Assembly: GCF_024345395.1 (NCBI RefSeq)
Contig: NZ_JAGQBA010000004.1
Location: 124,001 to 188,000 of the forward strand
Direction: 5' to 3'
Source: Cyanobium sp. Tous-M-B4
Lineage (GTDB): Bacteria > Cyanobacteriota > Cyanobacteriia > PCC-6307 > Cyanobiaceae
DNA: 64,000 nucleotides
Below, in pieces: positions 8,144-11,601 of this stretch (within the stretch, counting starts at the first letter, position 1; the number at the start of each line of letters is the position of its first letter). The notes under the pieces were generated by a model that saw only the letters and a program-made list of their open reading frames with translations, was not told the DNA's origin and did no database searches. Position numbers and translations under genes: made by a program.

Positions 8144-9244
8144 TCAGCTAGTAGCAGCTGCCAGCTCACCGGTCAGGGCCTGGTTTAGGCAGGATTCGAT
8201 AGCAGGGCGATCAAGTTGGAAGCCAAGCAAAACCAGCTCCAGGCCTGGGGCCTGCTGGGAGGCAGCAGCCTGCTCAACTCCTGGTTCAAACCAGCACTCC
8301 AACCGCGGTCCAACAGCCTGGATCTGAAGCGGTCGGTTTTTACCTGAAAGCCAAAGTCGCCCCTTGAGCCGGATCAGGGCGCTATCACCAACTAGCTGCA
8401 GCAGTTGTTGCTCAAGGGCAACGCGGCAGAAATCGCCAGGTAGGTCGAGGGCAAGCGACTCGATGGCGACATGGGTGTGATCGTGATGCTCGTGATGGTC
8501 ATGGTCATGGTCATGGTCGTGATGGTCATGGCCTGTGGTGGTCGGCTGCCGGGGCTCAAGGCCCAGCACCAGCTCTGGGGAGACCACACCCCTGCCCATC
8601 GACAACAGCACAGCTCCTGGCTGCAGCTGGGGGGCAAGGCCCTCATGCACCAGATCAATCTCGCCGGCCGATAGGCAGTCGGCGCGGCTGATCAAAACCA
8701 GATCGGCAGCCTCAAGCTGCTCGGCAAACAATTCATCGATAGCCGAAGCGTGATCCAGGCTTGGATCAGCAAGCCGCTGGGCTTCGAGAGCGGCTGGATT
8801 TGCCACCACACTGCCTGCTGCAAGGGCTTCGCCATCAACAACAGCCACCACGCCGTTGAGGCGAATGCGGGTGCGGATTTGCGGCCAATTCAGGGCAGCA
8901 ATCAGTGGTTCCGGTAGCGCCAGACCACTGGTTTCCACCACGATCCCATCGAGGCTGTCTGCTCGTTCAAGCAGCTTCTCCATGGTTGGCAAGAAGTCGT
9001 CTTGGACAGTGCAGCAGAGGCAGCCATTTGCCAACTCCACCAGGCGGGTATCGAGCTCATCCTCGGGGCAGAAACCACAGCTGCGCAGCAGCTCCCCGTC
9101 GATACCAACCTCGCCGAATTCATTAACCAGCACAGCCAGACGTTGGCCGCTGTTCAGCAGCAGATGACGCAGCAAGGTTGTTTTGCCCGCACCGAGAAAG
9201 CCTGTCACCACGGTGACAGGCAGCCTTCCAGTTTGTTTTGTCAT
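8144..9244 (-). CDS. cobW: CobW-family G3E metallochaperone GTPase
   Basis: A 366-residue G3E GTPase. The P-loop is GFLGAGKT at residues 15-22, the metal-binding CxCC motif is C75-L-C77-C78, and ETSGLALP is the switch region. Residues 239-258 are a histidine/aspartate run with 12 histidines in 20 residues. A C-terminal CobW domain follows. CobW proteins use GTP to deliver metal; this one starts two bases after hupE, which lies behind a cobalamin riboswitch, so cobalt delivery for (pseudo)cobalamin is the best inference. A zinc-related role (COG0523 is diverse) is the main alternative. Confidence 0.9.
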   Translation of the reverse strand: MTKQTGRLPVTVVTGFLGAGKTTLLRHLLLNSGQRLAVLVNEFGEVGIDGELLRSCGFCPEDELDTRLVELANGCLCCTVQDDFLPTMEKLLERADSLDGIVVETSGLALPEPLIAALNWPQIRTRIRLNGVVAVVDGEALAAGSVVANPAALEAQRLADPSLDHASAIDELFAEQLEAADLVLISRADCLSAGEIDLVHEGLAPQLQPGAVLLSMGRGVVSPELVLGLEPRQPTTTGHDHHDHDHDHDHHEHHDHTHVAIESLALDLPGDFCRVALEQQLLQLVGDSALIRLKGRLWLSGKNRPLQIQAVGPRLECWFEPGVEQAAASQQAPGLELVLLGFQLDRPAIESCLNQALTGELAAATS

Positions 9245-9245
9245 C

Positions 9246-9875
9246 TCAGGCAGTCAAACCCGCCAGGGCCCAGGTGCCCCCAAGGGCCATTAGGGCGAAA
9301 CCAAGCCAGCGCAGCTGGGTGGAAGAAAGGCGTGCCCCCAAAGGTCGCAACGCAATCAGTGCCAGCGCAAGCAGGGCTGCTTGGGAAAGAAACAGGCCCG
9401 TGCCGTAGGCCAATACGGGCATGGCGCTCCAGCCAAATACGGGGCCGCTTAGTACATATCCGTGCAAGGCCATGGCGGGAAGCAGCAGCAGGGGCGGCAA
9501 CCGCCGCAGCAACACCAGTGCCTCAACAATGAGGGTGCAGGCCACTAGGGATTCAGCGCCTGGCATCCCTGGCCACAGCAGTCCAGCAGCACTGCCGAGC
9601 AAGCCAACAGCAAGTAGTCCCAGGCTCCAGCCAAGCCGTTGCTGCAACCCCACCAAGGAAAGTGCCAGTAGGAAAAGCAGATGATCCGGGCCCAGCACTG
9701 GGTGGGCGAGGCCACTCAGCACGCCATTGATCGTGCTGGGTTGCAGCTGGCTGACATCAGCAAAATGATGCGCCTGGACTGGGCTCATGGCGCCAATACC
9801 GACTGCTGCCAGGCCAGCACCTAGTAGCCAACGGCCCAGTGCTTGGCCGTGGGGTGGTGTTTTTGTCAAATTCAT
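9246..9875 (-). CDS. hupE: HupE/UreJ-family nickel/cobalt permease (probable cobalt importer)
   Basis: A 209-residue membrane protein from ATG 9875; the longer frame to 10076 is riboswitch RNA read as protein and is rejected. An N-terminal signal/helix (about 14-35) precedes the exported HH pair at 36-37. The family motif HPVLGPDHLLFLL starts at H58 with D64-H65, and about six further hydrophobic helices follow. HupE proteins import nickel or cobalt. The cobalamin riboswitch directly upstream and cobW directly downstream point to cobalt. A 10-base palindrome, GGACCGGTCC, abuts the start codon (9876-9885). Confidence 0.9.
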   Translation of the reverse strand: MNLTKTPPHGQALGRWLLGAGLAAVGIGAMSPVQAHHFADVSQLQPSTINGVLSGLAHPVLGPDHLLFLLALSLVGLQQRLGWSLGLLAVGLLGSAAGLLWPGMPGAESLVACTLIVEALVLLRRLPPLLLLPAMALHGYVLSGPVFGWSAMPVLAYGTGLFLSQAALLALALIALRPLGARLSSTQLRWLGFALMALGGTWALAGLTA

Positions 9876-9899
9876 GGACCGGTCCGCGCCGTAGGAAGA

Positions 9900-10065
9900 A
9901 CAAAACCGGCGGGCGTTCTGACTTGGCAATGGTTCGCAAGCAGGCCCCAAAGTTGGAGCAGATTCGCGGGCCAAGGCCTTTACAGCTGCGGGACAGTGTC
10001 GGATTTCCACCGACCTTTCCCCCTTACCTCCAGTGGCTGATCCCCACTGGAACCGGAAATTAGAT
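9900..10065 (-). promoter_or_regulatory. Cobalamin (AdoCbl-type) riboswitch upstream of hupE-cobW
   Basis: Read on the minus strand, the region contains GGTGGAAATCCGACACTG followed by TCCCGCAGCTGTAAA (about 9977-10010), the conserved core of cobalamin riboswitches. A B12-box-like stretch GTCAGAACGCCCGCC lies at about 9909-9923. GGTTCC and GGGGATCAGCC stretches precede the core. The edges are approximate. In this family, ligand binding represses cobalamin or cobalt-uptake genes, usually by hiding the ribosome binding site or by termination. I see no T-tract terminator before hupE, so translational control at the start region is more likely. Confidence 0.9.
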
Positions 10066-10082
10066 GCTATCGGCAAGGGGCC

Positions 10083-10607
10083 CTATCGGCATGCCAGGCT
10101 TTCCTTGGTAGCGACTCCGGTGCTCGGATTGACACCGGCAGCGCGTTTACAGAGTGCTTTCTGCTCAGGCAGGTCGAGCACCGCGTCACTGAAATCAGCT
10201 CCTTCAATGGTTGCTCCTTTGAAGTGGCTCTGCATCAACATGGCGTTTCGCAGCACAGCACCACTTAGGTCAGTGTCCTCAAAGTGACTTGCGAAGGCCA
10301 CCGCGTCTTCCAGGTTGGCGTCTTTCAGGTTGGCTCCGCGTAGGTCGCTGCTGTTGAAAACAGCTCCGCGCAGATCGGTTCCGCTCAGATCGAAGCCCGT
10401 CAGGGTCGCCTTCAAAAACTCCTGCTGTTGAAGGTTGCGCCCGTGCATGTCGGGTTGGAGGTCTTGTAGCGAACGCTGGCTGCGCAGCTCTGGGGCGGTG
10501 ATCGCTGTGGCCGGAGAGACTCCCAGGCACCAGGTCAGCACTAGGGCCAGTGCGGCCAGCAGCCAGCTACCAGACCAACTCGCTCGGCTTTCAGATCTCG
10601 AGCTCAT
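10083..10607 (-). CDS. Exported pentapeptide-repeat protein
   Basis: A 174-residue protein from ATG 10607; the frame extends to 10724 without a good start. A signal peptide occupies about residues 12-36 (ending SPATA). About 13 pentapeptide repeats of the A(D/N)LXX type follow, for example LSGTDLRGAVFNSSDLRGAN and ANLEDA. A C-terminal tail has two cysteines (ALCKRAAGV and SLACR). Such proteins fold as a right-handed beta-helix, and the leader suggests the thylakoid lumen or periplasm, as for known lumenal pentapeptide proteins. Function is unknown. Its start is only 30 bases from the divergent UPRT-like gene. Confidence 0.82.
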   Translation of the reverse strand: MSSRSESRASWSGSWLLAALALVLTWCLGVSPATAITAPELRSQRSLQDLQPDMHGRNLQQQEFLKATLTGFDLSGTDLRGAVFNSSDLRGANLKDANLEDAVAFASHFEDTDLSGAVLRNAMLMQSHFKGATIEGADFSDAVLDLPEQKALCKRAAGVNPSTGVATKESLACR

Positions 10608-10637
10608 GGGCGCGCACTTACGGTGAATCATCAAGTT

Positions 10638-11303
10638 ATGGCAACCATGGTGATGGCTTTGCGGGTGGTGGTTCCCCCCCACCCCCTGATTGGCCACTGG
10701 CTTGGCGTACTGCGCGATCGACACACGCCTAGCTCTCTTTACGCCTCCGCTACTGCCGAGCTAGGTCGCTGGCTCACTTATGAGGCTGTGCGCGATTGGC
10801 TGCCCCACAGGCGCATCCAGCTGGAATCACCACTTGCTCCGGCAGAGGCGGACGTGGTGGATCCGGCGGTTCCCCTGCTGGCAATGCCCCTGCTAACCGC
10901 TGGGCTTGGCCTTTGGCAGGGCGGCCAAACAGTGCTTCCTTCTGCCCAGGTGCTCCACCTCCAAGAAAGCCTCGGTGTGATAACCCCTCCAGCCGGGCCC
11001 ATCCCCCCCCGCTGTGGAGTTTTGCTGTTCTTAGCGGAACTAGGAGATGGCGAATCCCTGCTCCATCTGCTTGATGACCTTTCAGCCCTAGGAGTGACGG
11101 GCGATCGCTTACGAGTGATTACATCCCTGGCCTCCGGGCCAGGACTCAAGGCTGTGGGGGAGCGGCACGGGAGCCTCACCATTTACGCCGCTGGCATTGA
11201 TCCAGATTTGAACGAAGCCGGTGCGATCGTGCCGGGTATCGGCGATGTGAAGCAGCGGTTGTTCGGTGGCACGGTGCTGGATGAACTGCCCACCGATACC
11301 TAG
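10638..11303 (+). CDS. Uracil phosphoribosyltransferase-like protein with eroded PRPP site
   Basis: A 221-residue protein from ATG 10638 (ATG 10653 also possible). The N-terminus LRVVVPPHPLIGHWL and ELGRWLTYEAVRDWLP match uracil phosphoribosyltransferase. The C-terminus keeps the uracil-binding signature AGIDPDLNEAGAIVPGIGD (residues 185-203). The PRPP-binding loop, normally DPMLATGG, is replaced around residues 131-140 by FLAELGDGES, and the flexible middle region is shortened. It may have lost UMP synthesis and taken a regulatory or structural role. Comparison with other picocyanobacterial copies would show whether this is lineage-wide. Confidence 0.72.
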   Translation: MATMVMALRVVVPPHPLIGHWLGVLRDRHTPSSLYASATAELGRWLTYEAVRDWLPHRRIQLESPLAPAEADVVDPAVPLLAMPLLTAGLGLWQGGQTVLPSAQVLHLQESLGVITPPAGPIPPRCGVLLFLAELGDGESLLHLLDDLSALGVTGDRLRVITSLASGPGLKAVGERHGSLTIYAAGIDPDLNEAGAIVPGIGDVKQRLFGGTVLDELPTDT

Positions 11304-11328: not shown

Positions 11329-11601
11329 ATGGGTAATCACAACGGCGGCACCCCTGCTAGAGGCAGTTCCAGCCTCAGTGTCTTGGCAGGTGCTGTTATT
11401 GGTGCTGCCGGCCTTGCCTGGTGGTTGCTGGCTGAGGCAGAGCGACGCCGGCACCAAGCCCGGCCTGCCCGCGCCGCTGGAATCGCCGCCTCGCCGGCTC
11501 TTACCAGGACGGACCGGGACCTTCACGATCGGGTCCATGAGCTCAACCAGGCGATCGACGACGTGCGCCGTCAACTGGAGACCATGACCATCCAGGGTTA
11601 A
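11329..11601 (+). CDS. Small single-span membrane protein of unknown function
   Basis: A 90-residue protein. One membrane helix (about residues 16-34, [19 protein letters not shown]) is followed by a basic stretch ([15 protein letters not shown]) and a C-terminal amphipathic helix from about 60 to 86 ([19 protein letters not shown]), probably a short coiled coil. The basic side predicts the C-terminus in the cytoplasm. It begins 25 bases after the UPRT-like gene and ends 55 bases before ilvD. Small proteins of this form occur in many cyanobacteria; I know no function. Confidence 0.68.

Follow-up and report, generated by a model that had tools for sequence, protein, structure and literature searches.

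A uracil phosphoribosyltransferase homologue with a degenerate active site, retained across a picocyanobacterial family and mostly beside an ssl2009-type gene

The window, i.e. the whole stretch of 64,000 nucleotides that was analysed, contains at positions 10,638–11,303 (+ strand) a gene for a protein of 221 amino acids (plus stop) that has the uracil phosphoribosyltransferase (UPRT) fold and a degenerate active site. The gene is near-universal in the family of the window's genome and is under purifying selection. The family-wide, strongly retained protein is a probable pseudoenzyme with a candidate partner encoded by the next gene, a larger finding than the one that the initial annotation had described. 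Our best reading is that of a moonlighting protein that has lost its enzyme role.

Identity and active site of the protein

The protein had been proposed as a UPRT homologue, and the homology was found over its full length, with a confidently predicted UPRT fold. Residues 12–210 matched PF14681 (UPRTase) at 7.5e-34, above the Pfam cut-off, and a phmmer search of the PDB returned 12 distinct UPRT sequences (best 7.5e-22). The AlphaFold2 model, built on an alignment of 89 rows, reached a pLDDT of 92.9 and a pTM of 0.88, and UPRTs ranked first among its Foldseek matches (best 6wn8, TM 0.81 by query length). The model of a Prochlorococcus relative (L062) showed a pLDDT of 93.1, and its first matches were also UPRTs (1v9s, TM 0.81). 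For the structure alignments, 88 of 121 filter-passing rows (180 aa or longer, free of X and stops) were used, and 42 other rows served for the second model. The Pfam and PDB matches, the models and the Foldseek ranking thus mark the protein as a UPRT in its descent and in its predicted fold. It missed the NCBIfam equivalog cut-offs, with 110.4 against 114 for NF001097 and 100.1 against 208.35 for TIGR01091. The same open frame has an alternative GTG start at 10,623.

Compared with Upp (PF14681; PDB 6wn8, 1i5e, and 1v9s), the window protein was alike in full-length homology and predicted fold, but it lacked the PRPP loop, the Arg residues of the pyrophosphate and flexible loops, and most of GDAGDR. 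At the PRPP-loop position (F131–S140; 11,028–11,057, + strand) it reads FLAELGDGES instead of DPMLATGGS. Both the PDB and the family alignments placed FLAELGDGES in the columns of VFDPMLATGGS, so the loop was replaced in place, as had been claimed, and a PRPP loop displaced elsewhere in the protein is ruled out. The losses extended beyond this loop. In the pyrophosphate loop (L85–L90; 10,890–10,907, + strand) the invariant Arg of PILRAG has become T87. The flexible-loop remnant (10,950–10,997, + strand) has lost its invariant Arg, and the shortening of this middle part held up, at about 8 residues fewer than in intact cyanobacterial copies. In the C-terminal segment I187–R207 (ID..LN...IVPGIGDVKQR; 11,196–11,258, + strand), the uracil/product loop reads PGIGDVKQR compared with PGLGDAGDR. 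The C-terminal signature, initially described as kept, therefore stands for PGxG, D203, and R207, whereas A-G-D is lost and GDAGDR has changed to GDVKQR. With several separate catalytic elements gone and the gene kept, the sequence gives good support to the proposed loss of PRPP use, and the protein would be expected to lack UPRT activity.

The motif AEL.DG at the PRPP-loop place was common to nine rows of the window's own sub-clade (the window copy L001, L035–L039, L168, L174, and L205). In the seven filter-passing pairs that included the window copy, dN/dS was 0.08–0.19, with 0.08 against each of L035, L036, and L037. The shared motif and the low dN/dS rule out a sequencing error or a pseudogene.

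Spread and retention of the degenerate form

A total of 221 loci with a copy gave 198 distinct sequences after removal of exact duplicates. The sampling was non-random: the queries were the window protein, a single Prochlorococcus protein and the Pfam family, and some regions were picked out of the resulting hit lists. The rows are non-independent with some near-copies, and the named contigs and genomes partly overlap. Copies were classified by a lenient PRPP-loop pattern, which DPMLATAG and DPILARGA also pass as intact. It gave 65 intact and 133 eroded sequences; two divergent extra copies (L170 and L214) were set aside, leaving 63 intact ones. A degenerate PRPP loop was thus present in 133/198 distinct cyanobacterial sequences of this sample. 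All 133 came from the window's family (113) or from named or unassigned records of picocyanobacterial type (Synechococcus 6, Cyanobium 5, Prochlorococcus 3, Synechococcaceae 1, and 5 with no family or genus).

Three residues outside the classification pattern followed the same division, each being kept in 63/63 intact copies. The flexible-loop Arg was missing in 129/133 eroded copies (kept in 4), the pyrophosphate-loop Arg in 98/133 (kept in 35), and the last Asp of GDAGDR in 132/133. P199, G200, G202, and D188 remained in 133/133 eroded rows and R207 in 132/133. In the phylum-wide search, 135 of the 140 genomes outside the family had a best match of 1e-57 or better, a comparison of score only, and the six family genomes in the same search showed best matches of 1e-24 to 1e-33. 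The remaining five outside genomes gave a partial match (G312 and G352), a marginal match (G337), or no match (G328 and G391). Outside the family, the PRPP loop was read in named records and in 30 loci of this search. Judged on titles and the first parts of abstracts, searches of the open-licence literature turned up no description of a cyanobacterial UPRT that is catalytically dead.

PF14681 was detected in 298 of 300 genomes of the family at 0.001, with 273 above the cut-off. A Prochlorococcus query matched 182/201 genomes, including 130 of the 131 that were at least 90% complete, and 18 of the 19 genomes without a match were less than 90% complete. The gene was retained even in genomes of 1.6–1.9 Mb. 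Median pairwise dN/dS was 0.16 for eroded copies (163 pairs) and 0.21 for intact copies (272 pairs), the pairs being non-independent.

A loop-deleted group of 65 rows was picked by the flexible-loop deletion alone and included 3 Prochlorococcus-named rows. At the old PRPP place these rows had D in 60, Q in 64, and I in 63, with a complete DQI in 57, and P followed PGIG(N/D) in 62/65. DQI was found in 0/68 of the other eroded rows. On a tree of 85 rows computed without the catalytic columns, the eroded state needed at least five changes, two of them forced by well-supported branches. An AU test of a single eroded clade gave a borderline p of 0.036 for a hypothesis that was named after seeing the data, and two genera (g10 and g45) each contained intact and eroded copies. 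A single origin of the erosion is therefore not favoured. The number of losses is uncertain, as the deep branches are weak, but the PRPP, pyrophosphate, and flexible loops probably eroded more than once.

N-terminal block and gene neighbourhood

Residues 13–56 (10,674–10,805, + strand) form a Trp-rich block, PPHPLI.HWL...R...TP...ELGRWLTYEA.RDWLP, that is kept in intact and eroded copies. W45, W54, G43, Y48, E49, R52, P31, and P56 were identical in 63/63 intact and 133/133 eroded sequences; W21 was present in 63/63 and 131/133, the other two having gaps. We call UPRTs with HWL and the ELGRWLTYEA.R.WLP block W-type, after their additional invariant Trp residues, and the window protein contains both elements. 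These Trp residues were missing from the solved UPRTs 6wn8, 1i5e, 2ehj, 3dmp, and 1v9s when the alignments were inspected, and also from ten ordinary UPRTs (L234–L243), the best-scoring copies of ten other cyanobacterial genomes. UPRT chemistry in general thus does not require the segment that is under the strongest constraint in this protein. W-type UPRTs of other cyanobacteria (e.g. L064 of Roseofilum and L073 of Nostoc) share with the window protein the Trp block and, mostly, an ssl2009-type neighbour, but they retain the catalytic motifs, which the window protein does not.

The gene for this neighbour, a small ssl2009-type protein, lies at 11,329–11,601 (+ strand), 25 nt after the UPRT stop, in a conserved position. 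It matched NF053524 at 2.1e-6 with 28.3 bits (cut-off 58). The two genes share a strand and may be co-transcribed. By eye, the protein begins with a hydrophobic stretch rich in Gly or Ala and is charged towards its C-terminus. Its assignment to the thylakoid comes from the NCBIfam name.

A profile derived from 53 of these very neighbours located an ssl2009-type gene downstream of 129 of the 132 eroded copies with enough sequence; the misses were L098, L100, and L163 (run of N). The corresponding counts were 29/30 for intact copies outside the family, 17/33 for intact copies within it, and 0/2 for the extra copies. The 16 intact family copies without a downstream match were L013, L017, L018, L020–L028, L030, L040, L046, and L047, and some of these may be misses of the profile. 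In five genomes (G035, G037, G048, G076, and G077) the intact copy was apart from ssl2009, which matched elsewhere in the genome. In 48 of the 58 genomes that belong to the window's class but not to the family, ssl2009 was within 283 nt of a UPRT gene; in the other 10 the two were apart. Adjacency is thus not obligatory, given these 10 genomes and the 16/33 intact family copies.

NF053524 scored above its cut-off in 58/58 class genomes outside the family and in 0/88 of the other genomes drawn. Of these 88, six were family genomes, each of which gave a weak match, and 82 came from other classes. Among family matches, 0/81 exceeded the curated cut-off. Weak matches below the cut-off were also seen in 71 of the 82 other-class genomes, many with two. 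The window's class is presumably oxygenic and the other classes of the phylum are presumably not. As the family matches all lie below the cut-off, with equally weak ones in other classes, the ssl2009 assignment in the family leans on position and on the neighbour-built profile.

ssl2009 stood beside the UPRT gene in 12/15 W-type loci compared with 0/17 non-W-type loci (n = 32; Fisher p 2e-6). Two full-length UPRT genes were listed in 10 of the 58 class genomes outside the family (G398, G304, G310, G307, G426, G329, G413, G359, G318, and G373). The best-scoring UPRT in these ten was the ordinary copy (L234–L243), which had neither the Trp block nor an ssl2009 neighbour; in nine of them it was the second copy that adjoined ssl2009. 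The ssl2009 neighbour goes with the W-type form and not with UPRT as such.

On the other side of the UPRT gene, a pentapeptide-repeat protein gene runs divergently at 10,083–10,724 (− strand). As the longest open reading frame of this gene runs into the start of the UPRT gene, translation probably begins further inside it. In 58/119 loci, a relative of the pentapeptide-repeat gene was directly upstream of the UPRT gene. At 8,144–10,076, a CobW-type GTPase with a His-rich stretch lies beside a HupE/UreJ-like membrane protein, which suggests metal handling.

Other pyrimidine genes

A profile search of the window's genome for a second intact upp, a possibility raised by the initial annotation, found no other PF14681 gene above the cut-off; PyrR, a different UPRT, is present. 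Three weak PF14681 matches were seen, which were PyrR (contig C6), orotate phosphoribosyltransferase (C1), and one on C5. The genome also encodes a fused OMP decarboxylase/orotate phosphoribosyltransferase in addition to the orotate phosphoribosyltransferase. PyrR (NF003549) is a UPRT by family name, of a family that differs from that of the window protein. It scored 241 bits against 138, with an unbroken VDDVIFTGRT motif. The VVLVDDVIFTGRT motif of PyrR is presumably its PRPP motif. PyrR was found in 51/51 near-complete family genomes, including those with an intact Upp, and its presence is therefore not enough to account for which lineages lost catalysis. A PyrR match in genome G031 (C1:1564001-1564525) has one in-frame TGA. 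Xan_ur_permease, the sole permease family searched, gave no match in the window's genome; other routes of uracil uptake are possible.

The genome of one relative (G030) carries an intact non-W UPRT (L170; 206 bits, NF001097 cut-off 114) together with the eroded native copy (L169) beside ssl2009. The divergence of the extra UPRT suggests that it may have been acquired by transfer. That the eroded copy is kept despite an intact UPRT speaks for a task of the eroded protein which UPRT activity cannot take over.

Discussion

We read the window protein as a non-catalytic descendant of W-type UPRTs in which a second role, probably at the thylakoid and with the ssl2009 protein, outlived the enzyme role, and in this specific form we give the reading an even chance. 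The most likely course would begin with an ancestral W-type UPRT with two jobs, UMP synthesis and a catalysis-independent role tied to the ssl2009 neighbour. The enzymatic job may have become dispensable in the picocyanobacterial family, which has de novo synthesis and PyrR. The PRPP, pyrophosphate, and flexible loops would then have eroded, probably repeatedly, while selection continued to act on the fold, on the Trp-rich N-terminal block and, in most cases, on the gene pair. The protein's function could be that of a scaffold or adaptor, with the ssl2009 protein as its docking point on the membrane. The initial annotation had offered a sensor or a structural subunit, and of these the structural subunit fits best with the invariant non-catalytic N-terminal block and the conserved neighbour. 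The thylakoid role with the ssl2009 protein is suggested by the gene pair, and conserved adjacency can also reflect co-regulation without contact. A wider version holds that W-type UPRT and ssl2009 form an ancient thylakoid module of oxygenic cyanobacteria, the essential function of which never depended on uracil salvage. In that case picocyanobacteria, including Prochlorococcus, would be natural mutants left with this function alone, and plastids would have inherited it, as seen in the catalysis-independent need of chloroplasts for UPP. We regard this version as tentative and rather doubtful.

The sensor would bind uracil, UMP, or another nucleotide in the leftover pocket and signal the pyrimidine state; PyrR or membrane processes might receive the signal. 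The retention of PGxG, the ID pair, and R207, together with the intact predicted fold, makes it possible. However, GDAGDR is changed, with its last Asp lost in all but one of the eroded rows, the sub-clades differ in their loop residues, and the pocket does not include the longest invariant block; we consider this explanation unlikely. The new loops (AEL.DG and DQI) could instead belong to a different active site, i.e. the protein could still be an enzyme with altered chemistry or substrate. DQI is indeed frequent in the loop-deleted rows at the old catalytic-loop place, but a single new reaction should mean shared key residues, and the other eroded rows lack DQI entirely. This explanation appears less probable than the sensor.

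A regulatory or structural partnership with another phosphoribosyltransferase, e.g. in a hetero-oligomer with PyrR, is consistent with the presence of PyrR in every near-complete family genome. In the window's genome, however, PyrR is on C6 and the UPRT gene on C4, and the conserved neighbour is ssl2009, which makes such a partnership improbable. Stepwise degradation of the catalytic site across the family is also what a decaying gene heading for loss would show. Against decay stand the near-universal retention, even in genomes of 1.6–1.9 Mb, dN/dS well below 1, the invariant non-catalytic residues, and the newly fixed motif. Decay was already disfavoured and we hold it to be very improbable.

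A possible parallel comes from plants, where chloroplast development is reported to require the plastid UPP of Arabidopsis independently of its catalytic activity. Work of Ohler et al. in 2019 reportedly found the chloroplast defect to be rescued by inactive Arabidopsis UPP and not by E. coli UPP. The plant UPP is itself an active enzyme, unlike the window protein in its presumed state. Plant UPRT has been described as light-induced and as important for establishing photosynthesis (PMC9312225), and its knock-out as a light-dependent albino and dwarf (PMC10380321). A study on purine and pyrimidine exudation by Prochlorococcus named UPRT for SAR116 and some SAR11 (PMC11698098). Passages of PMC12294303, PMC8082242, and PMC9009326 gave no direct evidence.

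As Pfam calls the protein UPRTase above its cut-off, annotation that goes no further than the domain would lead one to expect that these cells salvage uracil with it. For free-living phototrophs, the genomes of Prochlorococcus and related organisms are very small, and these picocyanobacteria nevertheless keep the UPRT-like gene. If the second role is true, the family would offer a candidate partner and natural loss-of-catalysis variants for finding the non-enzymatic function that is claimed for the plastid enzyme.
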